Below, in pieces: positions 17,353 through 31,945 of a stretch of 64,000 bases of DNA (the stretch's first letter is position 1; the number at the start of each line of letters is the position of its first letter). The notes under the pieces were generated by a model, which saw nothing but the letters and a program-made list of their open reading frames with translations, ran no database searches and was not told where the DNA came from. Origin of the DNA: Jiella endophytica (lineage in GTDB: Bacteria > Pseudomonadota > Alphaproteobacteria > Rhizobiales > Rhizobiaceae); the NCBI RefSeq assembly GCF_004519335.1, contig NZ_SOZD01000003.1:496001-560000 (forward strand). Reading direction: 5' to 3'. The translations under genes were made by a program, and so were the position numbers.

Positions 17353-17826
17353 TCACCAGAAGTCCCGGTGGACCTCGGCCGATTCCGCCTCGATCAGAGG
17401 GCCCACGACCTCGACCTGCCGCTGGCCGGCGGCGAACACCGTTCGGCAGGGAAGGTCCATCGTGAGGTTTTCCGGATTCGGGCCAATCAGTTCCTTCAGG
17501 CCCTTTTCGCCGAGGCCGTAGACGACCCGCCCGAGCCCCGCCCAATAGGCGGAGCCGGCGCACATCGCGCAGGGCTCGGCATTGGCGACCATCGTGCAGC
17601 GCGACAGGAACGCCGCGTCATAGGCCAGCGAGGCGTCGGTCATCAGGTTGCGCTCGGCATGGCCGGTCCTGTCGCCCCTGGTGCCGCCGGTGTTCATCGC
17701 CTCCATCAGCTTCTCGCCGTTGGGCCCGAGAAGGATCGCGGCAAAGGGATGATCGCCCCGCTCGCGGCTCTTCCAGGCGAGCGCGATGGTCTCGCGGACC
17801 CATTCGACGTCGGATTTTCCGGCCAT
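17353..17826 (-). CDS. nucleoside/nucleobase deaminase, zinc-dependent CDA fold
   Basis: A 157-residue single-domain deaminase from ATG at 17826. The zinc site is complete: HAERN (about 56-60) supplies His and the proton-shuttling Glu, and EPCAMC (about 84-89) supplies two Cys. Family relatives are guanine deaminase, tRNA adenosine deaminase TadA and cytosine deaminase FCY1. The short length and the C-terminal FAAGQRQVEVVGPLIEAE fit a free-base deaminase of the guanine-deaminase type better than TadA. It is convergent with YnfA and 7 bases from it, and it precedes the purine-like cluster beginning at 18.0 kb. A part in nucleobase breakdown is therefore plausible but unproved. Confidence 0.85.
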   Translation of the reverse strand: MAGKSDVEWVRETIALAWKSRERGDHPFAAILLGPNGEKLMEAMNTGGTRGDRTGHAERNLMTDASLAYDAAFLSRCTMVANAEPCAMCAGSAYWAGLGRVVYGLGEKGLKELIGPNPENLTMDLPCRTVFAAGQRQVEVVGPLIEAESAEVHRDFW

Positions 17827-18032
17827 GTGATCGATCGCCCTTTCGCGCTCCGATTCCCTTTTCCGCAGGGTGCAGGCGGCTTACCCCGGCCGCAATGGCC
17901 CGACGCGATGAAGATTTGCGCGCTGCTGCTTCATCATTGAGCATTTAGCAATCGCGCCCCGCAAGCGGCGCCCCGAGAGGCCGACGGAGCCGCCCCCGAT
18001 GCGGCTGGCACGGCCTTTGCATCGTCACCGCC

Positions 18033-18072
18033 GAGTAGAAGCGGTCAGGCGGTTTCCGCCGGGACATTGCTC
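18033..18072 (+). promoter_or_regulatory. NMT1-motif (xanthine) riboswitch aptamer, copy 1
   Basis: Seen: GAGTAGAAGCGGTCAG, then a 5-bp hairpin GGCGG-TTT-CCGCC (18048-18060), then GGGACATTGCTC. The outer GAG (18033-18035) can pair with CTC (18070-18072). The two single-stranded blocks TAGAAGC-n-GTCAG and GG-n-n-ATTGCTC match the NMT1 aptamer as I recall it (GUAGAAGC-GUUCAG ... CCGGAAAUUGCUCC). That class binds xanthine and close analogues and was named for the NMT1-type transporter genes it precedes; here the next gene is such a binding protein, 122 bases on. The same architecture recurs at 22226-22273, which makes chance unlikely. Confidence 0.85.
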
Positions 18073-18143
18073 AGTTGGGCGTACCGACACCGGTCCGTGG
18101 CCCGCTGATCCGCTTTTGCCGCGATCCACGGACAACGCCCACT
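18073..18143 (+). promoter_or_regulatory. long hairpin downstream of riboswitch 1 (candidate expression platform)
   Basis: GTCCGTGG (18093-18100) pairs perfectly with CCACGGAC (18126-18133). An outer stem pairs AGTTGGGCGT (18073-18082) with ACGCCCACT (18135-18143) with one bulge. It starts at the first base after the aptamer's 3' strand, so ligand-dependent closing of the aptamer stem could compete with it. How it controls expression is not readable. Confidence 0.45.
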
Positions 18144-18194
18144 CTGATGCCACAAGGCGCGCCGCTCCGGCCCGCCCAAACGGAGCTGAAGGGC

Positions 18195-19208
18195 ATGGCA
18201 CGAAACGATCTTCTCCCGCGTCTCATCGGCGGTCTTTTCGCCGGCTGCGCGCTTCTTGCCGCCGGCAGCGCCAGCGCCGCCGACAAGGTCGCCTACCAGC
18301 TCGACTGGCTGCCCGGCGGCGACAAGGCGCCGATCTATGTCTGCGTCGACAAGGGGTTCTGCGCCGATGCCGGGCTCGACGTCTCGATCGTCCCGGGCCG
18401 CGGCTCCTCCGAGGCGATCACCAAGATCGCCACCGGTGCGTCGGATATCGGCTCCGCCGACATCGGCGCGCTGATGGCCGCCCGCGTCAACGAGAGCGTG
18501 CCGGTCATCGCCGTCATGTCGATCTTCAACAAGGGCCCGCACGCCTTCTACACGCTGGAGGGCAGCGGCGTCGAAACCATCACCGACGTCAAGGGCAAGA
18601 CGGTCGCGACCTCGCCCTTCACCTCCTCCAACGTCTTCCTGCCGCTGGTCCTCAAGGATGTCGGCCTCACCGAGGACGACATCACCCTCACCAAGGCCGA
18701 TCCCGGCGCCCTCGGCCCGATGCTGATGACCGGCGCCAGCGACGTCATCATCGCCTGGATGACCGACGTCTCCCGCTATACCGGCCAAGCGAAGAATGCC
18801 GGCAAGACGATCAAGGTGTTTCCCTGGTCGGCGGCCGGGCTCGAGCTCTATTCGGCATCGCTGATCGCCAATGAGGGCTTCCTGAAGGACCGCCCGGACG
18901 TCGCCAGACGCTTCATCGCCGCCTTCAGGAAATCCGTCGAGTTCTGCATCGCCAATCCGCAGGAAGCCGCCGAGTCGGTCTCCCACATCGTGCCGGAGCT
19001 CACCGCCGAGAACGTCCTCGGCTCGCTCAAGGACACGCTCGTCCTCGTCGACAACGACGTCACCGAGAAGGACGGGCTCGGCGTCTTCGAGCCGAAGCGT
19101 CTCGCCGCCACCTGGGAGCGGGTTTCCGCCGCCCAGCAGCTCGACAAGGACGTCCTCGATCCCGAGACGGTGGTCGATCGCGCCTTCGTTCCAGGCGCCA
19201 CCCAGTGA
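18195..19208 (+). CDS. ABC transporter substrate-binding protein, NMT1/SsuA/ThiY-like
   Basis: A 337-residue periplasmic protein from ATG at 18195 with GGAG 10 bases upstream. The signal peptide is MARNDLLPRLIGGLFAGCALLAAGSASAA (in two parts), cut near residue 28. The mature part shows the NMT1/THI5-like fold: VAYQLDWLPGGDKAPIYVCVDKGF, ITKIATGASDIGSADIGALMAAR, VKGKTVATSPFTSSN. Relatives bind pyrimidines (ThiY), sulfonates or nitrate. The upstream xanthine-type riboswitch points to an oxidised purine or analogue as ligand. It overlaps the ATPase gene by 4 bases (GTGA). Confidence 0.9.
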   Translation: MARNDLLPRLIGGLFAGCALLAAGSASAADKVAYQLDWLPGGDKAPIYVCVDKGFCADAGLDVSIVPGRGSSEAITKIATGASDIGSADIGALMAARVNESVPVIAVMSIFNKGPHAFYTLEGSGVETITDVKGKTVATSPFTSSNVFLPLVLKDVGLTEDDITLTKADPGALGPMLMTGASDVIIAWMTDVSRYTGQAKNAGKTIKVFPWSAAGLELYSASLIANEGFLKDRPDVARRFIAAFRKSVEFCIANPQEAAESVSHIVPELTAENVLGSLKDTLVLVDNDVTEKDGLGVFEPKRLAATWERVSAAQQLDKDVLDPETVVDRAFVPGATQ

Positions 19209-20002
19209 CCCCGGCCAACGATCGGCCGGGCGACCCGGCGATCGTCTTCGACGGCCTTGGCCAGGTGTTCCACACCCGGTCGGGCCGCACCCACGCGCTC
19301 GACCATGTGGATTTCACCGTGGCGCGGCACCAGTTCGTCGCCGTGCTCGGGCCGTCGGGCTGCGGCAAGTCGACCCTCTTGCGGATGATCGCCGGGCTGC
19401 TGCAGCCGACATCGGGCGAGGTCCGCGTCTTCGGCCTCAAGGTCGCCGAGCCGCGCGACGACGTCGGCATCGTCTTCCAGAAGCCGACGCTGCTGCCCTG
19501 GGCGAGCGCCGAGGACAACGTCGTCTTCCCGCTCCGCCACAAGACCGGACGGGTCGACGCCGCCGACTGGGAACGGGCCCGCGCACTGCTGACCACGGTC
19601 GGTCTCGGCGGCTTCGAAGAGCGGCTGCCGGCAGAGCTTTCCGGCGGCATGCAGCAGCGCGTCGGCATCGCCCGGGCGCTCTTCATGGAGCCGGACATCC
19701 TGTTGATGGACGAGCCGTTCTCGGCCCTCGACGCGCTGACCCGCGAGGAGATGGGCTTCGAGCTCGTCCGGGTCTGGGAGGCCCAGCCGAAGACCGTCGT
19801 CTTCATCACCCATTCGATCTCCGAGGCGCTGCTCCTCGCCGACCGCATCGTCGTCATGAGCCCGCGCCCGGGCCGGGTGATCGAGGACCTGATCGTTCCC
19901 CTCTCCCGGCCGCGCGCCGGCGAGACGGGATTTCAAAACGCCGGAAAGATCCATGAGCTCTCAGGACATCTCCGCAGCCTCCTCGTCCAGCGCGCGGCCT
20001 AG
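19205..20002 (+). CDS. ABC transporter ATP-binding protein, SsuB/TauB/ThiZ-like
   Basis: A 265-residue ATPase that starts with GTG at 19205, overlapping the binding-protein stop. Walker A is GPSGCGKST (about 50-58), the Q-loop VFQKPTLLPW, the signature LSGGMQQRVGIARAL and Walker B ILLMDEPFSALD; the switch His is in FITHSI. The LPW after the Q-loop and the short C-terminus are typical of nitrate/taurine/pyrimidine-type importers. It powers the permease encoded downstream, whose start lies inside the last 50 bases of this gene. Confidence 0.93.
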   Translation: MTPANDRPGDPAIVFDGLGQVFHTRSGRTHALDHVDFTVARHQFVAVLGPSGCGKSTLLRMIAGLLQPTSGEVRVFGLKVAEPRDDVGIVFQKPTLLPWASAEDNVVFPLRHKTGRVDAADWERARALLTTVGLGGFEERLPAELSGGMQQRVGIARALFMEPDILLMDEPFSALDALTREEMGFELVRVWEAQPKTVVFITHSISEALLLADRIVVMSPRPGRVIEDLIVPLSRPRAGETGFQNAGKIHELSGHLRSLLVQRAA

Positions 20003-20804
20003 GCCGGCGGCAAGGCAACCGGGGCCGGGCTTAGCGGCCCGCGCCCTCGCCGCGCCCGGCCTCGTTCCGGTCGCGACCTTCGTGGCGATCCTCCTCGTCT
20101 GGGAGATCGCCTGCCGGGTCTTCGCCATACCCTCCTTCGTGCTGCCGGCGCCGAGCCGCATCGTCGAGGGGTTCGGTGCCGTCAGCCTCGGACGCTGGAT
20201 CGAACATATCTGGGCGACCCTCAGCGTCGCGCTGATGGGTTTCGCTCTGTCGATCGCCATCGCGATCCCGATCGCCGTCTTGCTGGCGCGCTCCGAGACC
20301 CTGTCGCGGGCGCTCTATCCGATCCTCGTCGTCATCCAGTCGACGCCGATCGTCGCGGTCGCGCCCATCATCATCGTCGTGATGGGCGCCGGCGACGCGC
20401 CGCGGGTCGCCATCACCTGCCTGATCACCTTCTTCCCGCTCGTCGTCTCCACCACCACCGGCCTGATGGCGACGCCGCCGGAACTCATCGAACTGTCGCG
20501 CTCGCTGCGCGCGCCGGCGATCCGCGAGATCACCCAGATCCGCTTGCCCTATGCGGTGCCCTTCATCTTCTCGGCGCTGAAGATCTCGGTCACCCTCGCG
20601 GTCATCGGCGCCGTGGTGGCCGAGTTCGTCGCGGCGGAAAAGGGCGTCGGCTACTTCATCCAGTTCTCGACCTCGATGTTCCAGATCCAGCAGGCCTGGT
20701 CGGGCCTCGTCGTCCTCGTCCTGATGTCGCTGGCGCTGTTCCAGCTCGTCAATCTGGCGCAGAGGCTGTTCTTCCCCTGGAGCCTGTCGGAGAAGGGCCG
20801 ATGA
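19953..20804 (+). CDS. ABC transporter permease, SsuC/ThiX-like
   Basis: A 283-residue inner-membrane permease from ATG at 19953 (GGAAAG upstream), overlapping the ATPase gene by 50 bases. The first 35 residues are Ser/Ala/Pro-rich and cytoplasmic. Five or six helices follow (about 36-58, 90-112, 122-150, 155-175, 215-240, 250-270). The EAA-type loop reads ELIELSRSLRAPAIREITQIRLPYAVPF in overlapping parts near 190-215, the SsuC-type sequence. The end overlaps the amidohydrolase start (ATGA), so importer and deaminase-type enzyme are one translational unit. Confidence 0.92.
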   Translation: MSSQDISAASSSSARPRPAARQPGPGLAARALAAPGLVPVATFVAILLVWEIACRVFAIPSFVLPAPSRIVEGFGAVSLGRWIEHIWATLSVALMGFALSIAIAIPIAVLLARSETLSRALYPILVVIQSTPIVAVAPIIIVVMGAGDAPRVAITCLITFFPLVVSTTTGLMATPPELIELSRSLRAPAIREITQIRLPYAVPFIFSALKISVTLAVIGAVVAEFVAAEKGVGYFIQFSTSMFQIQQAWSGLVVLVLMSLALFQLVNLAQRLFFPWSLSEKGR

Positions 20805-22192
20805 CGAGCTTCCTCGTCACCGGCGCCGTCGGCATCCTCACCGGTCTTCCCGGCGAGGCGGCGCGCGCTGCCGGCGACATCCGCGTCGAGGCCGGCACCA
20901 TCACCGAACTCGGCGATCTGGCCGCCCGCCCCGGCGAGCGGATCGTCGACGCCTCCGGCTGCGTCGTCACGCCCGGCCTCGTCAACACCCACCACCATCT
21001 CTTCCAGAGCGTGCTCAAGGCCGTGCCCGCCGGCATGAACGAGCCGCTGGCGCCCTGGCTGCGGCTGGTGCCGTACTCCTACTGGCATCTCATCGACGAT
21101 GAGGCGCTGCGGGTCGCGGCCCGCATCGGCCTCGCCGAGCTGATGCTCTCCGGCGCGACCACCGTCGCCGATCATCACTATTTCTACTCCGACCGCTTCG
21201 ACTACGATCCGAGCGCCGTCCTTTTCGAGGAAGCCGAGAGGCTGGGCATCCGTTTCGCGCTGCTGCGCGGCGGCGCCACCAAGGCCAGGCGTTTCGACGG
21301 GACCGACATGGTGCCGCTGCCGACCGAGAGCTTTTCGGCGATGACGGCCGCCGTCGAGCGCGACGTCGCGCGCTTCCACGATCCGGCGCCGGGTGCCATG
21401 CGCCGCGTCGTCTTCGCGCCGACGACGCCGACCTATTCGCTGCACCCCCACGAACTGGTCGAGGCGGCGCGCTTTGCCCGTTCTCTCGGCATCAGGCTGC
21501 ATTCGCATCTGTCGGAGGATACCGGCTACGCCGCCTTCACCCTTGCCGAATATGGCGCCCGACCGGTGGAGTGGCTGGCCGGCCACGAATGGCTCGGCGA
21601 CGACGTCTGGTTCGCCCATCTCGTCGACCTGTCCGAGCGCGAGATCGCCCTTCTCGCCGAGACCGGCACCGGCATGGCCCATTGCCCGCAGGCGAACGCT
21701 CGGCTCGGCTCGGGGATCGCGCCTGCGCCGGAGCTTGCGGCACGCGGCGGCGCGGTGTCGCTGGCGGTCGACGGCGCGGCAGCCAACGAGGCGGCGGATA
21801 TGGCGAGCGCGCTCTTTGCGGCCTTTTCGCTGCACCGGGCCGCGAAGGGCGCGAAGGCGGTGCGCACCGAAGAGATCATGCGCTGGGCGACGGCAGGCGG
21901 CGCCCAGGTTCTCGGCCTTCCGGCCATCGGCACGATCGCGGTCGGCAAGCAGGCAGACCTTGCCCTCTTCGATATGTCCAACCCCCGCTACCTCGGCCAG
22001 CACGACGCGGTTCTGGGGCCCGTCATCTCGGGCGGTCAGGCACAAATCCGCGCAAGTTTCGTCGCCGGCAAGGAGATCGTCGTGGACGGCCGCATCCCCG
22101 GCCTCGACCTCGGCGAACTCGGCGCGGCGGCGACCCGCGTCGTCGCGCGCATCAAGCAGCGCGCAAAGAAGGGAGGCGCCCTGGCCGCTTGA
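20801..22192 (+). CDS. amidohydrolase-superfamily deaminase, TRZ/ATZ - 8-oxoguanine deaminase type
   Basis: A 463-residue COG0402 enzyme. Metal ligands are visible in VNTHHHLFQSV (about 61-71), LHSHLSE (about 231-237), the FAHLVDL strand (about 268-274), and Asp in AVDGAAANEAADM (about 317-329), the counterpart of the family's TDGxASN motif. COG0402 members deaminate guanine, 8-oxoguanine, isoxanthopterin or S-adenosylhomocysteine, or dechlorinate triazines. The xanthine-type riboswitch in front of the operon favours an amino-purine or pterin whose deamination would give a xanthine- or urate-like product. That choice is inference. Its start overlaps the permease stop. Confidence 0.88.
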   Translation: MTSFLVTGAVGILTGLPGEAARAAGDIRVEAGTITELGDLAARPGERIVDASGCVVTPGLVNTHHHLFQSVLKAVPAGMNEPLAPWLRLVPYSYWHLIDDEALRVAARIGLAELMLSGATTVADHHYFYSDRFDYDPSAVLFEEAERLGIRFALLRGGATKARRFDGTDMVPLPTESFSAMTAAVERDVARFHDPAPGAMRRVVFAPTTPTYSLHPHELVEAARFARSLGIRLHSHLSEDTGYAAFTLAEYGARPVEWLAGHEWLGDDVWFAHLVDLSEREIALLAETGTGMAHCPQANARLGSGIAPAPELAARGGAVSLAVDGAAANEAADMASALFAAFSLHRAAKGAKAVRTEEIMRWATAGGAQVLGLPAIGTIAVGKQADLALFDMSNPRYLGQHDAVLGPVISGGQAQIRASFVAGKEIVVDGRIPGLDLGELGAAATRVVARIKQRAKKGGALAA

Positions 22193-22225
22193 GGGTCGCC
22201 AGCCCGACAGGATGCATCGGACCCC

Positions 22226-22273
22226 GGGAGTAGAAGCAGTCAGCGCTCGATCGTCGGCGCCGGTCATTGCTCC
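22226..22273 (+). promoter_or_regulatory. NMT1-motif (xanthine) riboswitch aptamer, copy 2
   Basis: Seen: GGGAGTAGAAGCAGTCAG, a hairpin GCGC-T-CGA(TCG)TCG-GCGC (22243-22260), then CGGTCATTGCTCC; GGAG (22227-22230) can pair with CTCC (22270-22273). The two conserved loop blocks agree with copy 1 (TAGAAGC-n-GTCAG and ATTGCTC), while the hairpin sequence differs and keeps its pairing. Such covariation is what a real structured RNA shows. It lies between the amidohydrolase stop and the oxygenase start, 47 bases before the ATG. The oxygenase can thus be controlled apart from the transporter genes. Confidence 0.85.
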
Positions 22274-22320
22274 TTCGGAACGCGGCGACGGCCGCCTTTG
22301 ATCGAAACGGAGAACTGAAA

Positions 22321-23325
22321 ATGACGGCAACCGCAACGCCCACCACGCCCTATGGCCTCGCCGAGCTCGAAAAGGAGCGCGGCTTCGGCGGCATGGGCAC
22401 CACCAAGGCCCGCAACGTCCCGCAGATCGACATGAGCGACTTTGCCGCCCGCAAGGCCGAGATCGCCGATCAGCTCTGGGACGCCTCCACCGAGATCGGC
22501 TTCTTCCAGCTCGTCAATCACGGCATCCCGCAGGCGCAGATCGACGAGGCCTTCGCCATGGCCGAGCGCTTCTTCGACCTCAAGGAAGCGACCAAGGCGC
22601 AATATCCGCTTCTGAAGGGCACCAATGCCGGCTGGGAATACAAGAGCCAGGTGCGCCCCTCGACCGGCACCGCCGACAACAAGGAGAGCTACCAGATCAC
22701 CCTGCCCCGCATGGAAAAGCTCTGGCCGACCGGCGAGGAGCTTTCCGGCTTCAAGGTGGTGATGCTGGCCTTCGAGCGCGCCAACTGGGCGCTCGGCATG
22801 AAGGTCCTGTCCTGTTTTGCCATGAAGCTCGGCTTTCCCGCCGACTTCTTCACCGACGCCCACGACCCGCTGCAGCCGGACTATCAGTCGACGCTGCGGC
22901 TGATCCACTATCTCCCCATGGTCGGCGCCAAGCCCGAGGACTTCACCGGCTGGCGCGCCGGCGCCCACACCGACTTCGACTGCCTGACGCTGCTTCACCA
23001 GAAGGTCGGTCAGGGCGGGCTGCAGCTCTGCCCGGGGCGCGAGGCAAGCGGCGAACTCGCATGGACCGATGTCGAGCCGAAGCCCGGCGTCGTCACCTGC
23101 AATATCGGCGACATGCTGATGCGCTGGAGCGACGACAGGCTGCAGTCGACGCTGCACCGGGTGCGGATGCCGCGAGAGGACGAGTATCTCGGGCCCCGCT
23201 ATTCGCTGCCGTTCTTCTGCCAGGCGAACAAGGGCGCGATGATCCAGGGGCCGGAGAAGAAATACCAGCCGATCACCGCCCACGACTACCTGCAGCAGCG
23301 GATCGCGGCGAACTTCGCCAAGTGA
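22321..23325 (+). CDS. Fe(II)/2-oxoglutarate-dependent oxygenase, isopenicillin N synthase family (copy 1)
   Basis: A 334-residue enzyme from ATG at 22321 (GGAG upstream). The DIOX_N region is seen as IGFFQLVNHGIP (59-70). The iron ligands are His216 and Asp218 in AHTDFD and His279 in STLHRVRMP; Arg293 and Ser295 in RYSLPFF bind 2-oxoglutarate. Family members hydroxylate or demethylate small molecules in the cytosol. It lies directly behind its own xanthine-type aptamer and follows a purine-type deaminase gene. Hydroxylation of a purine is therefore an attractive but untested role. The known 2-oxoglutarate xanthine hydroxylase (fungal XanA) is of a different subfamily (TauD-like). Confidence 0.92.
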   Translation: MTATATPTTPYGLAELEKERGFGGMGTTKARNVPQIDMSDFAARKAEIADQLWDASTEIGFFQLVNHGIPQAQIDEAFAMAERFFDLKEATKAQYPLLKGTNAGWEYKSQVRPSTGTADNKESYQITLPRMEKLWPTGEELSGFKVVMLAFERANWALGMKVLSCFAMKLGFPADFFTDAHDPLQPDYQSTLRLIHYLPMVGAKPEDFTGWRAGAHTDFDCLTLLHQKVGQGGLQLCPGREASGELAWTDVEPKPGVVTCNIGDMLMRWSDDRLQSTLHRVRMPREDEYLGPRYSLPFFCQANKGAMIQGPEKKYQPITAHDYLQQRIAANFAK

Positions 23326-23343
23326 CCCGCGGTGCCCCGCATG

Positions 23344-23367
23344 GCCGGGCGCCTCGTCGCGCCCGGC
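23344..23367. terminator. bidirectional stem-loop between convergent genes
   Basis: GCCGGGCGC (23344-23352) pairs perfectly with GCGCCCGGC (23359-23367) around CTCGTC. It lies 18 bases past the oxygenase stop and 15 bases past the creatininase stop on the other strand, so it can serve both genes. No T-run. Confidence 0.6.
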
Positions 23368-23382
23368 AGCCGTCACGCGCTT

Positions 23383-24177
23383 TCAGCAGAACAGACGCGC
23401 TTGCCTGACGTCATCGAGCAGACGCACGAAGCCCGCCGCCTGATGGTCGGCGATCGCCCTGCCCTTTTCGGCGGTCGCGGCGGACGCGTCGCCGACGGTG
23501 CCCTTGCCGTTGAGGTCGCTGGCGATCCAGGCATAGGCGTGGGTGCCGGTCGGGCGCAGAAGCTCGAAGTCCCGTTCGAAATCGGTGGCGGTGGAGACGA
23601 AATTCTCCGCCTTCGCCATGTCGACCGCCTCCGGCCGGAAATGCAGCATCAGCGAGGTCTCGGCGTCGCCGCCATGGATGCCGTGGCGTTTCTCCAGGTC
23701 GTCGATCATTCCCTCGGGCGAGCCGAAGCGCGACCAGGACGTCTTCACCACCAGCATCTTGGCGCGGACGCGGAGCTCGCGGGCGACGATGCCCATGATC
23801 TCCTCGTTGCCGCCATGGGAGTTGACCATCACCAGCTTGCGGATTCCGGCCCGGGCGACGGAGAGGCCGAGTTCGCTCCAGGCCTCGATCAGAAGCGCCG
23901 GCGGCAGCGTCAGCGTGCCGGGCGCATGGAGATGCTCGTTCGACTTGCCGACCGCCTGGATCGGCAGGATGCGCAGGTCGAGATCGCCCGGCAGCCTCTC
24001 GATCACCGTGTGCAGCATGCCGTGATTGATCACGGTGTCGGTGCCGACGGGAAGATGCGGCCCGTGCTGCTCGACCGCGGCGATCGGCAGGACGGCGATC
24101 GTCGCCATCGGGTCGAGATTTTCGAAGGCGGTGGTCGGAAAGTCGGACCACCAGACAGGTCGCCGGGCTTGGCTCAT
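23383..24177 (-). CDS. creatininase-family amidohydrolase
   Basis: A 264-residue metalloenzyme. ATG at 24177 is preceded by AGGAG; an upstream ATG at 24198 lacks a good site. Family motifs: AAVEQHGPHLPVGTD (about 33-47) with Glu, His and Asp metal ligands, NSHGGNEE (about 118-125), and HGGDAETSLML (about 157-167). The family cleaves cyclic or linear amides: creatinine, formamido-pyrimidines (ArfB) or peptides of modified cofactors. It is transcribed away from the second ABC operon, together with RidA, from a shared divergent promoter region. It could open a ring or remove a formyl/amide group from an intermediate; that is inference. Confidence 0.9.
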   Translation of the reverse strand: MSQARRPVWWSDFPTTAFENLDPMATIAVLPIAAVEQHGPHLPVGTDTVINHGMLHTVIERLPGDLDLRILPIQAVGKSNEHLHAPGTLTLPPALLIEAWSELGLSVARAGIRKLVMVNSHGGNEEIMGIVARELRVRAKMLVVKTSWSRFGSPEGMIDDLEKRHGIHGGDAETSLMLHFRPEAVDMAKAENFVSTATDFERDFELLRPTGTHAYAWIASDLNGKGTVGDASAATAEKGRAIADHQAAGFVRLLDDVRQARLFC

Positions 24178-24210
24178 TGCGTCTCTCCTCTTGCGCATCC
24201 GAAGCGTCCG

Positions 24211-24591
24211 TCACGCGGCGGCGACTACCTCGATCTCGACCACGAATTCTTCCCTGGCAAAGCCTGTGACGATCATCAGCGTCGAGGCCGGATAGGGCGC
24301 CGGAAACAGCCGGTCGCGCACCGCCATGTATGGCTTCAGATGCTCGCGCCCGGTCACATAGGCGTTGATCCGCACGACGTTTGCGAGCGTCATGCCGGCA
24401 TCGGCGAGGATCGCCGCGACATTGGCGAAACAGCGCTCCGCCTGAGCGCCGCAGCCTTCGGGGATCGTGCCGTCGGCATCGATGCCGAGCTGGCCGGAGA
24501 GAAAGACGGTTCGCGCCCCGGGCGGCACTTCGATGCCGTGGGAATAGGCCGCAAACGGCGGATGGATGGTCTCGGCGCGAAGGGTCTTCAT
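24211..24591 (-). CDS. RidA family (YjgF/YER057c/UK114) protein
   Basis: A 126-residue protein with the family layout: PFAAYSHGIEVPPGARTVFLSGQLG, RCFANVAAILADAGMTLANVVRINAYVT, and an Arg (RD...) followed by PAPYPASTLMIVTGF. RidA deaminates reactive enamine/imine intermediates. Pathway-specific relatives such as RutC act on aminoacrylate-type products of pyrimidine ring opening. The usual Arg at position about 105 is not in its standard context here: TLMIVTGFAREEFVVEIEVVAA carries Thr-Gly-Phe-Ala before the Arg. It may therefore be a non-archetypal subgroup. It starts the creatininase operon with a 33-base gap. Confidence 0.88.
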   Translation of the reverse strand: MKTLRAETIHPPFAAYSHGIEVPPGARTVFLSGQLGIDADGTIPEGCGAQAERCFANVAAILADAGMTLANVVRINAYVTGREHLKPYMAVRDRLFPAPYPASTLMIVTGFAREEFVVEIEVVAAA

Positions 24592-24670
24592 CCCGCTCTC
24601 CCGGATTGGCTCGACCGAGCCTTAGCCGCTGTGATCACGGAAATAAATGTTGCCGCCGCAATTAAATGCC

Positions 24671-24705
24671 TTGCAACTGGGCGTGCCTCAAAAATAGACT
24701 TTTTG
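24671..24705 (+). promoter_or_regulatory. candidate promoter with inverted repeat for the second NMT1-type operon
   Basis: TTGCAA (24671-24676), an 18-base spacer and TAGACT (24695-24700) resemble a sigma-70 promoter pointing to the binding-protein gene 80 bases on. An inverted repeat CAAAAA-TAGAC-TTTTTG (24689-24705) overlaps the -10 element and could bind a regulator. No riboswitch aptamer is present in this leader. Confidence 0.35.
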
Positions 24706-24780
24706 CGGATGCGAGATCGTTCCCACCCCTCGTCGAAACGCGCGCCGACGCGTCGCCGACCTCTGCGAAGGATTGACGAC

Positions 24781-25803
24781 ATGATGCCGACTTCCCCTAC
24801 CCTGACGGCGATCGCCTTCGCCCTGCTTCTCGGCTCCGCCGGGGCTGCCATGGCCGATGACAGCGAGCCGGTCGCCGTCTCCTTCGGCACCAACTGGCTC
24901 GCCCAGGCCGAGCACGGAGGCTACTACCAGGCGCTCGCCGACGGCACCTACAAGAAATACGGGCTCGACGTGACGATCCGCCAGGGCGGCCCGCAGGCGG
25001 CCAACCGCAACCTCCTGATCGCCGGGCAGATCGACTTCTACATGGGCGGCACCCTCGGCTCCTTCGACGCGGTCAAGCAGGGCGTTCCGCTGATCACCGT
25101 CGCGGCGATCTTCCAGAAGGATCCGCAGATGCTGATGGCCCATCCGGACCAGGGCATCGACGATTTCGCCGACCTCGCCAAGCTGCCGACGATCTTCATG
25201 GGGAAGGAGGGCTTCATCACCTACTTTTCCTGGATGAAGGCGAATTACGAGGGCTTCTCCGACGCCCAGTTCAAGCCGTACCAGTTCAATCCCGCCCCCT
25301 TCATCGCCGACCCGAAGTCGGCCCAGCAGGGCTACATCACCTCCGAACCCTACGAGGTCGAGAAACAGGCCGGCTGGGCGCCGAAGACCTTCCTCCTCGC
25401 CGACCAGGGCTTCGATCCCTATTCGACGACGATCGAGACCCAGCGCTCGATGGTCGAGGAGAAGCCCGAGGTGGTCCAGAAGTTCGTCGATGCCACGATC
25501 ATCGGCTGGTACAACTATCTGAACGGCGACAATTCGGCCGCCAACGAATTGATCAAGAAAGACAATCCGGAAATGACCGACGAGCAGCTCGCCTTCTCGC
25601 TGGCGAAGATGAAGGAGACCGGCATCGTCGTCTCCGGCGCCGCCGAGGAGAAGGGCATCGGCTGCATGACCGACGAGCGCTACAAGGACTTCTTCGACAA
25701 GATGGTGGCGATCGACGTGGTCGACGCCTCGCTCGACTACAAGAGCGCCTACACCCTCGACTTCGTCTGCAAGGGCGTCGGCATGAAGGCCGCCGGCAAA
25801 TGA
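24781..25803 (+). CDS. ABC transporter substrate-binding protein, NMT1/THI5-like (second system, copy 1)
   Basis: A 340-residue periplasmic protein from ATG at 24781 (GAAGGA upstream; an ATG at 24784 is equally possible). The signal peptide is about MMPTSPTLTAIAFALLLGSA plus GAAMA. The mature protein shows VSFGTNWLAQAEHGGYYQAL, GLDVTIRQGGPQ, KDPQMLMAHPDQG and DPKSAQQGYITSEPY. It is clearly paralogous to the protein encoded at 30954 (NWLAETEHCGFYQA, KDPQTLVAHPGQG, DPKAVQQGYITEDAY). The WLA-x-x-EH-x-G-x-YQA motif is typical of the pyrimidine/thiamin-precursor-like group. It leads an eight-gene operon. Confidence 0.9.
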   Translation: MMPTSPTLTAIAFALLLGSAGAAMADDSEPVAVSFGTNWLAQAEHGGYYQALADGTYKKYGLDVTIRQGGPQAANRNLLIAGQIDFYMGGTLGSFDAVKQGVPLITVAAIFQKDPQMLMAHPDQGIDDFADLAKLPTIFMGKEGFITYFSWMKANYEGFSDAQFKPYQFNPAPFIADPKSAQQGYITSEPYEVEKQAGWAPKTFLLADQGFDPYSTTIETQRSMVEEKPEVVQKFVDATIIGWYNYLNGDNSAANELIKKDNPEMTDEQLAFSLAKMKETGIVVSGAAEEKGIGCMTDERYKDFFDKMVAIDVVDASLDYKSAYTLDFVCKGVGMKAAGK

Positions 25804-25849
25804 CGCCGGCGCTTGCTCGCCCCGCCCGCTGAACCAACCGGAACCCGCC

Positions 25850-26677
25850 ATGTCCAGCGCCGCCGTCGCCGAAAGGCCGGCCGCCAGCACGCGCCAACGG
25901 CCCGTGGTCTCGGCCCGCAACGTCTCCAAGCGCTTCTCCAACGGAACGCTGGCCCTGTCGGACATGACGCTCGACATCATGCCGGGGGAGTTCGTCAGCC
26001 TGCTCGGCCCGTCGGGCTGCGGCAAGTCGACGGCGCTGCGCATCATTGCCAGCCTCGGCGAGGCGACCACCGGCACGATCGACTGGCCGACCTCGCGGAT
26101 CGACAGCCGCGGCAAGCCGGCCTCCAGCATCGGCTTCGTCTTCCAGGAGCCGACGCTGATGCCCTGGCGCACGGTGTTTGGCAATGTCTACCTGCCGCTC
26201 CGGCTGAAGGGCCAGTCGAAGTCTGCCTCCCGCGAGCGCATCATGGCGGCACTGGAAACCGTCGGGCTCGGGGACTTCGCCAAAGCCTATCCGCGCGAAC
26301 TCTCGGGCGGCATGAAGATGCGCGTCTCGATCGCCCGCGCCCTCGTCACCGAACCTGCCATCCTGTTGATGGACGAGCCCTTCGGCGCCCTCGACGAGAT
26401 CACCCGCCAGAAGCTCAATGACGACGTCCTGAGGCTCTGGCACGAGGCCGGCCTCACCGTCGTCTTCGTCACCCATTCCGTCTACGAGGCCGCCTATCTG
26501 TCGAGCCGCATCATCGTCATGGGCTCGCGGCCGGGCCGCGTCGTCACCGACATGCCGATCGACAGTCCCTGGCCCCGCGACGAGGGCTTCCGCTCGAGCG
26601 AGGACTACGCGGCGCTGAGCCGCAAGGTGTCGGACGCCCTCCAGCATGCGATCCACCAGACGGGAGAAGCCGCATGA
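25850..26677 (+). CDS. ABC transporter ATP-binding protein, SsuB/TauB-like (second NMT1 system)
   Basis: A 275-residue ATPase with Walker A GPSGCGKST (about 52-60), VFQEPTLMPWRT, signature LSGGMKMRVSIARAL and Walker B ILLMDEPFGALDE; the switch His is in FVTHSVYEAAYLSSR. It is closely related in type to the ATPase at 19205 but is a separate gene. It couples to the permease through an ATGA overlap. As the only ATPase in an operon with two binding-protein genes, it probably serves both. Confidence 0.93.
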   Translation: MSSAAVAERPAASTRQRPVVSARNVSKRFSNGTLALSDMTLDIMPGEFVSLLGPSGCGKSTALRIIASLGEATTGTIDWPTSRIDSRGKPASSIGFVFQEPTLMPWRTVFGNVYLPLRLKGQSKSASRERIMAALETVGLGDFAKAYPRELSGGMKMRVSIARALVTEPAILLMDEPFGALDEITRQKLNDDVLRLWHEAGLTVVFVTHSVYEAAYLSSRIIVMGSRPGRVVTDMPIDSPWPRDEGFRSSEDYAALSRKVSDALQHAIHQTGEAA

Positions 26678-27561
26678 GCGATCTTCCCGCCACCAGCGCC
26701 GTCGCCGCTCCCGCTGAAGACGAAGCGAAGGAACTCGCCGTTCGCGGCAGGCAGGAGCCCCGCGAGATCAGCGCCAGGGCGGACCTGGTGCTGCGGATCG
26801 CCGTTCCGACCTTTGTCCTGCTTTTGACCGTTCTCGCCTGGCAGCTCTATGTCGTTTTCGCCGAGGTGCCGGCCTACATCCTGCCGAGCCCGGTCGCCGT
26901 CGCCACAGCGCTCTGGACCGACTGGGGCACGCTCTATCCGGCGCTGCTCGTCACCCTGAAGATCACCTTCACCGCGCTGATCCTGGCGCTCGCCGGCGGC
27001 GTCGCGCTCGCGGTGCTGCTGGTCCAGTCGCGCTGGATCGAGCTTGCCCTCTATCCCTATGCGGTGATCATGCAGGTGACGCCGATCGTCGCCATCGCGC
27101 CGCTGCTCCTCGTCTACGTCTCCTCGACCCAGACGGCGCTCTTGATCTGCGCCTTCATCGTCGCCTTCTTCCCGATCCTGTCGAACATGGTCCAGGGCCT
27201 GAAGAGCGTCGACCACAACCTCCTCAACCTCTTCGACCTGTACGGTGCTTCGCGGATGCAGACGCTGTGGCTTTTGAAGCTGCCGGCCGCGCTACCCTAT
27301 TTCATGGCGGGGCTGAAGATCGGCGGCGGTCTCGCGCTCATCGCCGCGGTGGTCGCCGAATTTGCCGCCGGCTCGGCGGGCGCCGGTTCCGGCCTCGCCT
27401 TCCGCCTGCTCGAATCCCAGTACCGCCTCAACATCCCGCGCCTCTTCGCCGCGCTGATCCTGTTGTCGGTGACCGGCGTCGCGATCTTCGGCCTGACCTC
27501 GCTGATCTCCTGGCTTTCGCTCCGCCGCTGGCACGAGAGCGCGCTGAAACGGGAGAACTGA
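26674..27561 (+). CDS. ABC transporter permease, SsuC/ThiX-like (second NMT1 system)
   Basis: A 295-residue permease. About 45 charged N-terminal residues precede helices near 47-68, 105-128, 135-160, 165-185, 225-248 and 262-285. The EAA-type loop reads LNLFDLYGASRMQTLWLLKLPAALPYF in overlapping parts near 195-220, as in SsuC-type permeases. It lies between its ATPase and a cytosine-deaminase-like gene with only 3 bases to the latter. By family it forms a homodimeric channel for a small planar or anionic ligand. Confidence 0.92.
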   Translation: MSDLPATSAVAAPAEDEAKELAVRGRQEPREISARADLVLRIAVPTFVLLLTVLAWQLYVVFAEVPAYILPSPVAVATALWTDWGTLYPALLVTLKITFTALILALAGGVALAVLLVQSRWIELALYPYAVIMQVTPIVAIAPLLLVYVSSTQTALLICAFIVAFFPILSNMVQGLKSVDHNLLNLFDLYGASRMQTLWLLKLPAALPYFMAGLKIGGGLALIAAVVAEFAAGSAGAGSGLAFRLLESQYRLNIPRLFAALILLSVTGVAIFGLTSLISWLSLRRWHESALKREN

Positions 27562-27564
27562 GCC

Positions 27565-28893
27565 ATGAGCATCATCGAGGAAGCAGCGGGGGGCGAACGC
27601 CGGCTGCGGAGTGCCACCCTGCCGCAGGCTTTGACGCCGGCAGGCGGCACCGGCCTCAACCTGGTCGACATCGACATTTCGGACGGGCGCATCGCCGCGA
27701 TCGCCCCGGCCGGCACCCTCCCCGAGCGGCCGGGCGCTGCCCTCCACGATTGCGACGGCGGCCTCGTCTTTCCCGCCTTCATCGACCTCCACACCCATCT
27801 CGACAAGGGTCATATCTGGCCGCGCAAACCCAATCCCGACGGCAGCTTCATGAGCGCCCTCAACGCAGTGATGGCCGACCGCGAGGCAAGCTGGAGCGCT
27901 GCCGACGTCGAGCGGCGGATGGATTTCGCCTTGCGCTGCGCCTATGCCCACGGCACGGCGGCGATCCGCACCCACATCGATTCCGCCCCGCCCCAGCACG
28001 AGATCTCCTGGCCGGTCCTTGGAGCGATGCGCGAGCGCTGGGCCGGCCGGATCGAGTTGCAGGGCGTCGCCCTCCTCGGCCCCGACCACCTTCTCGACCC
28101 GGGCCTGCTCGAGCGGGTCGCTTCGACCGCCAGGGCCGCCGGCGGCAGGCTCGGCGGCGCGATCTCGGTCTTCGACAGGGCCAGGGAAGCGATCGCAGCG
28201 GCGGTCGAGGCCGCCGGGCGCCACGGGCTCGATCTCGACCTTCATATCGACGAGAGCGAGGAGACCGCCTCGCGCTCGCTGGCGATCCTCGCCGAGACCG
28301 TCATTGAGACCGGCTTCTCCGGCAAGGTGGTCGCCGGGCACTGCTGCTCGCTCGCCGTCCACGACGAGACCTTCGCGAGGGAAACCATCGAGCGTGTCGC
28401 CGAGGCCGGCATCGCCATCGTCTCGCTGCCGATGTGCAACCTCTACCTCCAGGACCGGCACGGCGAGAACGGCCCGCGCACGCCGCGCTGGCGGGGCGTC
28501 ACCCTCGTCAACGAGCTGCGCGCGGCCGGCGTCGCGGTCAGCCTCGCCTCGGACAACACCCGCGATCCGTTCTACGCCTATGGCGACCTCGACGGGCTCG
28601 AGGTGCTGCGGGAAGCGGCGCGGATCGCCCATCTCGACCATCCCGCCGACGAGGCGTTCTCCTGGGCCCGGGCGGTGACGTCGACGCCCTCTGAGGTCGG
28701 CGAGTTTTCCTGGCGCGGCGAGATCGCCGTCGGCGCGCCGGCGGACTGCATCCTCTTTCGCGCCCGCAGCTGGACCGAGCTGATGGCGCGGCCGCAATCC
28801 GACCGCATCGTGCTGCGCGCCGGCCGGCCGATCGACCGGACCCTCCCCGACTATCGCGAGCTCGACAACCTGATGGGCGCGCCCCAGCCATGA
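27565..28893 (+). CDS. cytosine deaminase-like amidohydrolase (CodA/AtzC group)
   Basis: A 442-residue amidohydrolase. Metal ligands: His pair in FIDLHTHLDKGHIW (about 72-85), His in LHIDESEE (about 228-235), His in VVAGHCCSLA (about 255-264), and Asp in ASDNTRDPFYAYGDLDG (about 330-346). The SDN-x-RDPF motif is diagnostic for the cytosine deaminase / N-isopropylammelide hydrolase group. It removes an amino or alkylamino group from a pyrimidine- or triazine-like ring in relatives. The start is 3 bases after the permease stop and the end overlaps the FAD enzyme gene (ATGA). It should act on the imported ring compound or a breakdown product. Confidence 0.9.
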   Translation: MSIIEEAAGGERRLRSATLPQALTPAGGTGLNLVDIDISDGRIAAIAPAGTLPERPGAALHDCDGGLVFPAFIDLHTHLDKGHIWPRKPNPDGSFMSALNAVMADREASWSAADVERRMDFALRCAYAHGTAAIRTHIDSAPPQHEISWPVLGAMRERWAGRIELQGVALLGPDHLLDPGLLERVASTARAAGGRLGGAISVFDRAREAIAAAVEAAGRHGLDLDLHIDESEETASRSLAILAETVIETGFSGKVVAGHCCSLAVHDETFARETIERVAEAGIAIVSLPMCNLYLQDRHGENGPRTPRWRGVTLVNELRAAGVAVSLASDNTRDPFYAYGDLDGLEVLREAARIAHLDHPADEAFSWARAVTSTPSEVGEFSWRGEIAVGAPADCILFRARSWTELMARPQSDRIVLRAGRPIDRTLPDYRELDNLMGAPQP

Positions 28894-30308
28894 CGAGGAC
28901 AGCCCCCTTGGACATCGACGCCTTCCGCCGTGATCTCGGCGACATTCCGGTCGAGGACAATCCCAAGCTCGTCCTGCAGAAGAGCCGGGACTTCTACTGG
29001 TATTCGCCGGTCCTGAAGCGCCAGCTCGATCATGTGACCGCCGACCTCGTGGTCACTCCGCGGACCATCGACGACGTGGTGACGACCCTCGCCAGCGCCC
29101 ATCGCCACGGCGTGCCGGTGACGCCGCGCGGTGCCGGGACCGGCAATTACGGCCAGGCGATGCCGCTCTCCGGCGGCGCCGTCCTCAACCTCGCCGGTCT
29201 GACCAAAGTCGTCGCGTCGAGCCCGATGACGGTGCGCGCCGAGGCCGGCGCCATCCTTGCCAGGATCGACGAGGAGACACGGGCGGCCCATGGCGCCGAG
29301 ATGCGCTTCCACCCCTCGACCTATCGCACCGCGACGATCGGCGGCTTCGTCGCCGGCGGCTCGGGCGGCGTCGGATCGATCCGCTGGGGCGGCCTTCGCA
29401 ACTTCGGCAACATCATCTCGCTGAAGGTGGTGACCTGCGAGGCGAGCCCGCGCATCCTCGACATCGAGGGCACCGACATTCTGAAGGTCGCCCACGCCTA
29501 CGGCACCAACGGCATCATCGTCGAGGCGGAAGTGCCGCTGACGGCCGGCTACGACTGGGTCGACGTCCTTGCCGGCTTCGACACGATCGAAGACGCCGTG
29601 CGCTTTGCCCGCAACGTCGCCCTGCAGGACGGGATGCTGCTGAAGGAGATCGCGCCGATCGCGGCGCCCGTTCCCCACGACTATTTCGTCCGGCACCAGA
29701 AGTTCATCCGCAAGGATCAGTCGGTCGTCGTGATGATGGCCGCGCCGCAGGCGATGGCCGCGCTGTCGATCTTCCTCGCCCACGAGAAGGGCGAGATGCT
29801 CTACCGTTCTGACGCGGCGAGCGAAGAGGACTTGAAGCGCCTGCCGCCGGCCTACGAGCTCGCCTGGAACCACACGACGCTGCGCGGCCTCAAGGTCGAT
29901 CCGTCGATCACCTATCTGCAGACGCAATATCCCGATCTGGAGACTCTCAAGAAGATCATCGCGCTCCTCGGCGACGAGATGCCGATGCACAACGAGATGA
30001 TCCGCTTCGACGGGCGGGTGGTCTTTTCCGGCCTGCCGATCGTGCGCTTCTCCACCGAGGAGCGGCTGGAGGAGATCATCCGGATCCACGAGGACAATGG
30101 CTGTCTCGTCTTCAATCCGCACCGCTACACGCTGGAGGAAGGCGGCATGAAGCGCTCCGATCCCGGCCAGCTCGCCTTCAAGCGCGAGGCCGATCCGAAG
30201 GGCATCCTCAACCCCGGCAAGATGATCGCCTGGGAGAATCCCGACTTCGACTTCGCCTCCGGCAAGGCCTGGCTGTTCTCCGGCCTGCAGAGCGCGGGGG
30301 CGGACTGA
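28890..30308 (+). CDS. FAD-binding (PCMH-type) oxidoreductase, GlcD-like
   Basis: A 472-residue flavoenzyme. The PCMH FAD domain is at about 45-225: DLVVTPRTIDDVVTTLASA, VTPRGAGTGNYGQAMPLSGG, and the second FAD segment GGFVAGGSGGVGSIRWGG. The C-terminal substrate domain ends with LAFKREADPKGILNPGKMIAW, the usual GlcD/VAO end. The residue after the PP-loop is Asn-Tyr rather than the Gly-His that bears covalent FAD in oxidases, so FAD is probably bound non-covalently. It overlaps the deaminase gene. It may dehydrogenate an intermediate of the same ring compound, passing electrons to a partner such as the flavodoxin-like protein that follows. Confidence 0.9.
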   Translation: MTRTAPLDIDAFRRDLGDIPVEDNPKLVLQKSRDFYWYSPVLKRQLDHVTADLVVTPRTIDDVVTTLASAHRHGVPVTPRGAGTGNYGQAMPLSGGAVLNLAGLTKVVASSPMTVRAEAGAILARIDEETRAAHGAEMRFHPSTYRTATIGGFVAGGSGGVGSIRWGGLRNFGNIISLKVVTCEASPRILDIEGTDILKVAHAYGTNGIIVEAEVPLTAGYDWVDVLAGFDTIEDAVRFARNVALQDGMLLKEIAPIAAPVPHDYFVRHQKFIRKDQSVVVMMAAPQAMAALSIFLAHEKGEMLYRSDAASEEDLKRLPPAYELAWNHTTLRGLKVDPSITYLQTQYPDLETLKKIIALLGDEMPMHNEMIRFDGRVVFSGLPIVRFSTEERLEEIIRIHEDNGCLVFNPHRYTLEEGGMKRSDPGQLAFKREADPKGILNPGKMIAWENPDFDFASGKAWLFSGLQSAGAD

Positions 30309-30312
30309 GCCG

Positions 30313-30897
30313 ATGCGCGTTCTCGTGGTCCACGCCCATCCGGTCGAGACGAGCTACAGCGCGGCGCTCAACACCATCGTTCTCGACGAACTGGCGAAGG
30401 CCGGGCATGCGGTCGATCACCTCAGCCTCTATGGCGAGGGCTTCGATGCCGTCCTCTCCCGCGAGGAGCGGCTCGCCTATCACGATGTCCCGGACAACCT
30501 GACCGACGCCATCCGCCCTTACGTCGAGAGGGTCAAGGCGGCGGACGCCCTGGTCTTCGTTTATCCGGTGTGGAACTTCGGCCTGCCGGCGATCCTGAAG
30601 GGCTTTTTCGACCGGGTCTTCGTGCCAGGCGTCGCCTTCGAGATGCGCGGCGGCCAGCTGGTACGGGTGCTGCCGCCGAAGAAGAAGATCGCCGTCGTCA
30701 CCACCTATGGCGGCGACCGGCTGCGGGCGCTTCTGATGGGCGATCCGCCCCGCAAGGTCGCCTGCCGGGTGTTTTGGACGGTGTTCCGCCCGCGCCGCCC
30801 CGTCCAGTATCTCGCTCTCTACGACATGAACAACAACGGCCCCGGAAAGCTCGACGCCTTCAAGGCGCGGGTCGCCCGGGCGATGGCGCGGTTCTGA
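30313..30897 (+). CDS. NAD(P)H dehydrogenase (quinone), flavodoxin-like fold
   Basis: A 194-residue protein of the NQO1/MdaB group. The FMN/FAD phosphate loop is at the N-terminus (VVHAHPVETSYSAAL, 5-19). The conserved ADALVFVYPVWNFGLPAILK (about 77-96) and FFDRVFVPGVAF (about 98-109) follow. Such enzymes reduce quinones or related acceptors with NAD(P)H by two electrons. It starts 4 bases after the FAD enzyme gene, so the two are cotranscribed. It might recycle an electron acceptor or reduce an unsaturated ring intermediate; no substrate is evident. Confidence 0.9.
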   Translation: MRVLVVHAHPVETSYSAALNTIVLDELAKAGHAVDHLSLYGEGFDAVLSREERLAYHDVPDNLTDAIRPYVERVKAADALVFVYPVWNFGLPAILKGFFDRVFVPGVAFEMRGGQLVRVLPPKKKIAVVTTYGGDRLRALLMGDPPRKVACRVFWTVFRPRRPVQYLALYDMNNNGPGKLDAFKARVARAMARF

Positions 30898-30953
30898 GCC
30901 GCGCCGGCGGGATGCGCCGAAAATATCCAAGCCTTAGTTGAAGGACCCTTCAC

Positions 30954-31934
30954 ATGCGAAACCCGAGACGACTGCCGGCCCTCATCCTCGCCGCGGCCAG
31001 CGCCGCCTTTGCCACTGCCCCGGCCGCCCGGGCCGCCGAGGCGATCACCTTCGGCCTCAACTGGCTCGCCGAGACCGAGCATTGCGGCTTCTACCAGGCG
31101 AAGGCCGCCGGGCTCTATGATGAAGCCGGTCTCGACGTGACGCTGGTGCCGGGCGGGCCGGACGCCAATGTCCCGCTGCTGGTCGCCTCCGGCAAGTACC
31201 AGCTCGGCATGGGGTCGAGCTTCACGACGCTGAACCTCCTCGCCCAGGACATTCCGGCAAAGACCGTCGCGGCCTTCCTGAAGAAGGACCCGCAGACGCT
31301 GGTTGCCCATCCCGGCCAGGGCGTCGAGACGCTGGAGGACCTGAAGGGCAGGACGATCATGATCGCCAAGTTCTCCCAGCAGGAGTTCTGGCAGTTTCTG
31401 AAGACCAGATACGGCTTTTCCGACGAGCAGCTGAAACCCTACACCTATTCCGCGGCGCCCTTCCTCGCCGACCCGAAGGCGGTTCAGCAGGGCTACATCA
31501 CCGAGGACGCCTATCTCCTCGGCAAGGAGATGCCCGAGCCGCCGGTCTCGCTGCTGCTTGCCGACTACGGCTACCAGAACTACGCCTCGACGGTGTTTGG
31601 CCGCAGCGACTGGATCGACGCGCACAAGGATGCCGTCAGGGCTTTCGTCGAGGCGACGGCGAAGGGCTACCAGGCCTGCCTCGACGGCAAGGCGAGCGCC
31701 GGCGAGGAGGCGATCCTGACCGCCAATCCCGACCACACCAAGGGCCTCTACGACTTCAAGCTGAAGCAGATGAAGGAGCGCAACATGGTGACCGGCGAGG
31801 ACGGCGGGCCGATCGGCCAGATGACCGACGAGCGATGGAAGGACTTCTTCGACACGATGGTCGCGTCGGGCGTCTACGCGAAAGACCTCGACTACAAGGC
31901 CGCCTACGACCTGTCCTTCGTCGACGGCGAATAA
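30954..31934 (+). CDS. ABC transporter substrate-binding protein, NMT1/THI5-like (second system, copy 2)
   Basis: A 326-residue periplasmic protein with signal peptide MRNPRRLPALILAAASAAFA plus TAPAARA. The mature start AEAITFGLNWLAETEHCGFYQA, the GLDVTLVPGGPDAN stretch and DPKAVQQGYITEDAYLLG match the paralogue at 24781. It lies downstream of the catabolic genes with no ATPase or permease of its own, so it probably feeds the transporter at 25850-27561. Ligand-lining positions differ (HCGFY versus HGGYY; SSFTT versus GTLGS). This suggests a related but different ligand, such as the substrate versus a derivative. Confidence 0.9.
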   Translation: MRNPRRLPALILAAASAAFATAPAARAAEAITFGLNWLAETEHCGFYQAKAAGLYDEAGLDVTLVPGGPDANVPLLVASGKYQLGMGSSFTTLNLLAQDIPAKTVAAFLKKDPQTLVAHPGQGVETLEDLKGRTIMIAKFSQQEFWQFLKTRYGFSDEQLKPYTYSAAPFLADPKAVQQGYITEDAYLLGKEMPEPPVSLLLADYGYQNYASTVFGRSDWIDAHKDAVRAFVEATAKGYQACLDGKASAGEEAILTANPDHTKGLYDFKLKQMKERNMVTGEDGGPIGQMTDERWKDFFDTMVASGVYAKDLDYKAAYDLSFVDGE

Positions 31935-31945
31935 GGAGATCTGCC

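Follow-up and report, generated by a model that had tools for sequence, protein, structure and literature searches.

Two in-line xanthine-class aptamers in a gene cluster of Jiella endophytica, the second preceding a 2-oxoglutarate oxygenase gene with hints of ON polarity

The window, a stretch of 64,000 nucleotides from Jiella endophytica (contig NZ_SOZD01000003.1, positions 496,001 to 560,000), carries a gene cluster with an ABC transporter, an amidohydrolase, a 2-oxoglutarate/Fe(II) oxygenase of isopenicillin-N-synthase (IPNS) type and two aptamers (Table 1). The closest solved chain of the amidohydrolase was 2paj_A (E 4.5e-139), which we take to be isoxanthopterin deaminase, followed by 3hpa (2.6e-75, named amidohydrolase) and 7ww2 (9.3e-73, 8-oxoguanine deaminase). 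According to the text of PMC5270733, isoxanthopterin and pterin-6-carboxylate are substrates of relatives of 8-oxoguanine deaminase from the Sargasso Sea. The small divergent deaminase was not assigned to TadA (tRNA adenosine deaminase), as it scored 45.8 bits against a cut-off of 150 for NF008113. No terminator-like site was found in 17800-23500. A sigma-70-type promoter was not found in the same range either, which is not informative because only 0.3 were expected by chance.

Table 1. Features of the cluster, in window coordinates
Feature	Position	Strand	Remarks
Small CDA-fold deaminase	17353..17826	-	PF00383; divergent from copy 1; recurrent cluster partner
First aptamer (copy 1, RF03054), leader of transporter/deaminase operon	18028..18077	+	50.9 bits, E 2.4e-8; P1 3' strand ends GCUCA
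NMT1/THI5-like ABC substrate-binding protein (SBP)	18195..19208	+	PF09084, 141.7 bits for 18198-19208
ABC transporter ATPase	19205..20002	+	PF00005
ABC transporter permease	19953..20804	+	PF00528
Amidohydrolase, guanine/8-oxoguanine/isoxanthopterin deaminase group	20801..22192	+	NF009059 (PRK12393), 646.1 bits, cut-off 543
Second aptamer (copy 2, RF03054)	22223..22277	+	48.5 bits, E 1.1e-7
Copy 2 P1 5' strand GGAGUA	22227..22232	+	Rfam alignment
Copy 2 P1 3' strand UGCUCC	22268..22273	+	Includes CUCC, 22270-22273
Local hairpin GCGGC-GACG-GCCGC	22282..22295	+	Between aptamer and ribosome site; hairpin at same place in related leaders
Shine-Dalgarno GGAG	22309..22312	+	8 nt before ATG 22321
2-Oxoglutarate/Fe(II) oxygenase (IPNS type)	22321..23325	+	PF03171 + PF14226; followed by minus-strand genes

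A second nucleobase-like cluster is located at 23383-32917. It begins with creatininase and Rid family genes on the minus strand, continues with an ABC ATPase, a permease, a cytosine-deaminase-like amidohydrolase (PRK07583) and a FAD-binding protein, and also includes an NAD(P)H oxidoreductase, an NMT1 binding protein and a second IPNS-type oxygenase. Parts of a cluster of this type adjoin the oxygenase in six related loci.

The sequence-only reading had proposed a second xanthine-type aptamer about 4.2 kb downstream of a first one, with the same loop blocks and a covarying hairpin. The covariance-model search, suggested there as a check, agrees with it: cmscan over the whole window gave two RF03054 (xanthine/NMT1 riboswitch) matches, both full length and above the gathering score of 36 bits, with starts 4,195 nt apart. 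Both copies carry the two conserved blocks and the P1 and P2 helices with conserved junctions, their P2 hairpins are different yet paired, and both precede purine transport or oxidation genes, the context of the family. Apart from these two, no RF03054 match at E<=0.001 was found in the window's assembly (5.25 Mb, 97% complete). Over the whole structure, 43 aligned aptamers had 106 cells with double-sided changes (85 of them in P2, the other 21 in the outermost pair of P1), compared with 50.9 (sd 5.0) in shuffles that ignore the relatedness of the aptamers; none of 500 shuffles was as high. P1 of copy 2 ends at 22273, so that 47 nt separate it from the oxygenase ATG, as had been read. Because the genes after the oxygenase are on the other strand, copy 2 can serve the oxygenase only, which was also part of that reading.

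The leader was then compared across relatives, namely the best 80 of 568 oxygenase relatives in named genomes. Their aptamers were called with a covariance model from 43 aptamers, some of them from the same loci, and matches down to 25 bits were counted. In 76 of these best 80, an aptamer lies no more than 300 nt ahead of the oxygenase match; of the four loci with no aptamer upstream, one has its gene starting at a contig edge. A chance resemblance or a decayed duplicate is hardly conceivable for copy 2, in view of this conserved position and of a score well above the cut-off. Sequence and conservation show the element at 22223-22277 to be a genuine aptamer of the xanthine class, lying in the leader of a single gene for a 2-oxoglutarate/Fe(II) oxygenase.

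Two same-strand aptamers in line were found in 53 of the best 80 loci, a single aptamer in 23 and none in 4, and 44 of the 53 pairs are arranged around transporter and/or deaminase genes. The order aptamer, SBP, ATPase, permease, amidohydrolase, aptamer, oxygenase occurred in 26 of the best 80 loci (aptamer spacing 4.1-4.3 kb), and the same order lacking the amidohydrolase in 15 (2.8-3.0 kb). Two loci had only the amidohydrolase between the aptamers, and one more was like them with a TadA-like gene added. In nine loci no gene was recognised between the aptamers, which stand 192-332 nt apart, start to start; such a leader can be read either as a tandem switch or as a remnant after loss of the transporter operon.

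Clustering of the neighbours of the best 80 loci and the window, for families in at least six loci, recovered the known cluster. Beyond it, 15 loci had a second oxygenase, 11 had a cytosine-deaminase-like gene, and LysR regulators formed two families of 7 loci each; three further recurrent ORF families look like antisense frames. A second IPNS-type oxygenase, about 31-36% identical, was seen directly behind the first in nine loci. On a wider scale, RF03054 was present in 9 of 297 genomes of the order, 2 of 385 of the class and 17 of 398 of the phylum, the own genome being counted each time and the stricter filters of these searches losing some weak matches. The oxygenase was not detected at E<=1e-60 in nine of nine other genomes of the genus, so the cluster is accessory.

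The CUCC in the P1 3' strand of copy 2 has two complementary partners, the aptamer's own GGAG in P1 and the GGAG of the Shine-Dalgarno (SD). We compared this feature among related leaders, with start codons and SDs picked by script and the window included in the counts. GCUCC was the P1 3' strand in 62 of 64 oxygenase leaders whose start lies <62 nt from the aptamer, and in 2 of 13 longer ones (start >=62 nt). It was found in none of 41 transporter (SBP) leaders, which read GCUCG (24) or GCUCA (17) instead, and in neither of two deaminase leaders. GGAG was the SD in 73 of 77 oxygenase leaders versus 14 of 41 transporter leaders. The earlier suggestion that importer/deaminase and oxygenase are separately tuned stands as far as these regular differences go: they are in line with separate tuning.

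GCUCC close to GGAG was also found in both oxygenase leaders of L032 and L036, two genomes outside the class, and 5 of the 9 tandem leaders have GCUCC in their upstream copy as well, at a long distance from the SD. None of eight other out-of-class oxygenase leaders, presumably from betaproteobacteria, reads GCUCC; their oxygenase match lies 146-351 nt after the aptamer start. GCUCC may simply go back to one of two ancient aptamer lineages, so that the counts are not independent. It could also simply strengthen P1. Four of the eight out-of-class leaders that lack GCUCC (L019, L023, L024, L025) contain a downstream segment with about 9-10 nt of complementarity to the P1 3' strand, which offers P1 an alternative partner.

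Another type of leader feature was seen before the transporter. Of 43 transporter leaders, 13 contain an ORF that starts 22-70 nt past the aptamer at an SD-like site and runs to the start codon of the SBP, which would suit translational coupling of the two; the window has no such ORF. Overlaps of this kind from starts without SD were seen at 10 loci, and the peptides differ.

Control by copy 2 would most likely act at translation initiation, because no terminator was found and the ribosome site is 36 nt after P1. UGCUCC could pair alternatively with GGAGUA, forming P1 in the ligand-bound state, or, across the short hairpin, with the SD GGAG. With CUCC locked into P1 by the ligand, the SD would be free and the ribosome site accessible; the prediction is therefore that xanthine or a xanthine-like ring turns the oxygenase ON.

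Folding was evaluated on leaders of 30-61 nt, of which 29 were left after thinning at 75% linker identity. Predicted pairing of the SD with the P1 3' strand was 0.21 versus 0.07 with shuffled linkers (p 0.006), and the difference in SD accessibility between bound and free state was 0.10 versus 0.00 (p 0.003). In predicted folds of the unthinned leaders of 30-61 nt, 18 of 39 opened the SD by >0.1 on binding and 4 closed it. The flanks of CUCC and GGAG fitted their own partner better than permuted ones (n=29; dG p 0.012, run of pairs p 0.001). The hairpin between CUCC and SD was more stable than in letter shuffles (mean z -2.34), with 28 of 32 related leaders below -1. The ligand-free SD was no better hidden than with shuffled linkers (0.40 versus 0.37; p 0.83 in a separate run), so the excess lies in the bound state.

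Leaders <30 nt showed no opening excess (3 of 21 open, 2 close) and no excess in the flank-fit test (n=14). When they were pooled with the others (n=43), the flank dG test failed (p 0.46) and the run of pairs held (p 0.007). RNAalifold gave no fold on the 29 leaders. For the full-length leader of the window, predicted pairing of the SD with the P1 3' strand was 0.01 and SD accessibility was 0.30 bound and 0.41 free; CUCC-SD pairing appeared only in a truncated fold. The models of related 30-61 nt leaders lean to ON, and that of the window leader alone leans slightly to OFF.

The published polarity of the class is OFF, and this is a quite possible alternative for copy 2. Bound P1 near the ribosome site would hinder initiation, the product would repress the oxygenase, and CUCC would only strengthen P1. 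This is matched with the published reporter, which reads OFF with a Hydrogenophaga leader, and with the steps upstream of xanthine and urate at which its authors place the genes under control (text of PMC7373994). The lack of an ON signal in leaders <30 nt and the slight OFF tendency of the window leader also speak for it. The flank fit of CUCC and SD, the greater opening in the bound state and the conserved hairpin of the 30-61 nt leaders argue against it. The published test, as given in the text of PMC7373994, concerned one leader and one point mutant in two media with no ligand series. Since the out-of-class leaders are different and the published OFF result was obtained with a Hydrogenophaga leader, polarity may differ by leader type.

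Taken with the modelled folding of related leaders, the complementarity of GCUCC to the SD is a hint of ON control, the reverse of the published OFF polarity. Our best explanation, which we favour tentatively, is a translational ON switch for the oxygenase, with the two copies tuned apart and with a substrate like the product of the deaminase. The upstream copy would serve importer and deaminase via a different, longer leader; as the copies act through different leaders, the two halves of the cluster would be tuned apart. A stronger form, which we regard as somewhat doubtful, is that the two copies have opposite signs in one cluster: the importer/deaminase copy would repress, in keeping with the published polarity of the class, and the oxygenase copy, with its P1 3' strand as anti-Shine-Dalgarno, would activate. 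If so, xanthine or a xanthine-like deaminase product would halt import and at the same time induce the enzyme by which it is removed.

The oxygenase matched PF03171 with 72.6 bits (cut-off 23) and PF14226 with 73.2 bits (cut-off 27.3), which agrees with the family given in the sequence-only reading. The residues of its HxD...H and RxS motifs (H216, D218, H279, R293, S295) are invariant in 21 of 21 orthologues, and the AlphaFold model has a mean pLDDT of 87.8. The substrate of isopenicillin N synthase proper is the ACV tripeptide, and the oxygenase is 21-23% identical to the IPNS chains in the Foldseek list. The first fold match was thymine-7-hydroxylase, a fungal 2-oxoglutarate oxygenase (PDB 5c3p-5c3s; Foldseek E 9.5e-28), with VIA Z 33.9, rmsd 2.3, 285 aligned residues and 33% identity. 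The counterparts of its Arg190 (R193), Phe292 (F299) and metal ligands are invariant in the 21 orthologues, whereas Tyr217, Glu122 and Asn294 are replaced by Phe219, Gln125 and Gln301, and Asn87 lies outside the alignment. This likeness does not fix the substrate, because the next-ranked family scores Z 32.2 and because 3oox and 9ovh share several of the residues. The fungal xanthine dioxygenase XanA belongs to the TauD family (TauD domain, PF02668). The XanA family was rejected for our oxygenase, which matched only PF03171 and PF14226 at E<=1e-3 and has no TauD domain.

Xanthine dehydrogenase (xdhA, TIGR02963 above cut-off) was found in 21 of 21 genomes carrying the oxygenase and in 15 of 18 non-carriers; for OHCU decarboxylase the numbers were 21 and 16 in the same two sets. 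We therefore set aside the oxygenase as a simple substitute for xanthine dehydrogenase. With both enzymes in all 21 carriers tested, the oxygenase is unlikely to be the sole enzyme that oxidises xanthine, and another purine or related ring is as plausible a substrate as xanthine. The oxygenase would stand beside xanthine dehydrogenase, not in its place. The aptamer reads the 2-oxo edge of xanthine, and deamination of a 2-amino ring yields such an edge. We take the oxygenase most likely to act on the 2-oxo ring made by the cluster deaminase, or on a near relative of it.

Two other substrates were considered. In the first reading, unlikely in our estimation, the substrate is a modified purine, from which the oxygenase would by demethylation or hydroxylation supply xanthine or urate to the xanthine dehydrogenase route, and the switch would report the product. 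The presence of that route in all carriers would suit this, as would the rejection of methylated xanthines and urates by the aptamer (text of PMC7373994) and a VanA-type Rieske oxygenase in the place of the oxygenase in genome G691. Neighbour clustering, limited to families in at least six loci, few of them annotated, revealed no recurrent methylpurine or formaldehyde gene, and induction by a product would be odd if the ON reading holds. The Rieske gene of G691 (L053:10136-11155) stands under a divergent aptamer, and a urease accessory gene is close by.

A pteridine pathway seems very unlikely. Here a pterin would be imported and converted by the amidohydrolase to a lumazine, the aptamer would sense the 2,4-dioxo ring, and the oxygenase would hydroxylate the lumazine. 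That 2paj is the best solved relative of the amidohydrolase, ahead of 3hpa and 7ww2, favours it, and so does the pocket, which reads the 2-oxo edge and leaves C8 open (text of PMC8266621). Xanthine and urate, however, bind in published work, and the contacts at N7 and N9 of xanthine may leave no room for a larger second ring. The xdhA gene adjoining the cluster in genome G797 and the urease accessory gene in G691 also point the pathway to purines.

If the oxygenase copy is ON as we favour, this enzyme may be the one, missing so far, that uses up the ligand, and both its substrate and the purpose of the switch could be tested directly. The class is described only as OFF in the text of PMC7373994, so an ON form would be a new one there. 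Two-copy clusters are natural matched pairs for seeing how one aptamer is wired to different leaders.

The xanthine riboswitch class, its ligands and its place before isopenicillin-N-synthase-like oxygenases were already published by Yu and Breaker (2020, PMC7373994), whose text also proposes purine substrates for these oxygenases. They note no genes that degrade oxidised purines under the switch, leave its purpose open, and list isoxanthopterin among the compounds bought for the ligand panel. Other members of the class bind xanthine, urate and 8-azaxanthine (texts of PMC7373994 and PMC8266621). Among the search results and main-text passages covered, we found no in-line pairs and no ON form.

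The HpxDE system of Klebsiella, cited in the text of PMC7373994, is of Rieske type, as is the oxygenase under an aptamer in at least one genome (L053); the IPNS-type oxygenase of the cluster has an unrelated fold. Compared with the NMT1 motif RF03054 described in PMC7373994, our locus has the same aptamer and the same partners (NMT1 binding protein, PRK12393 amidohydrolase and pcbC-type oxygenase), and again no terminator. We conclude that copy 2 genuinely belongs to a known riboswitch class and is well conserved, and that its opposite polarity is an unproven but testable hint. The locus differs from the published class in two respects: the window has two in-line copies where the main text of PMC7373994 describes a divergent pair, and the P1 3' strand of copy 2 is complementary to the SD, which makes it possibly an ON switch, compared with the OFF switch published for another leader.
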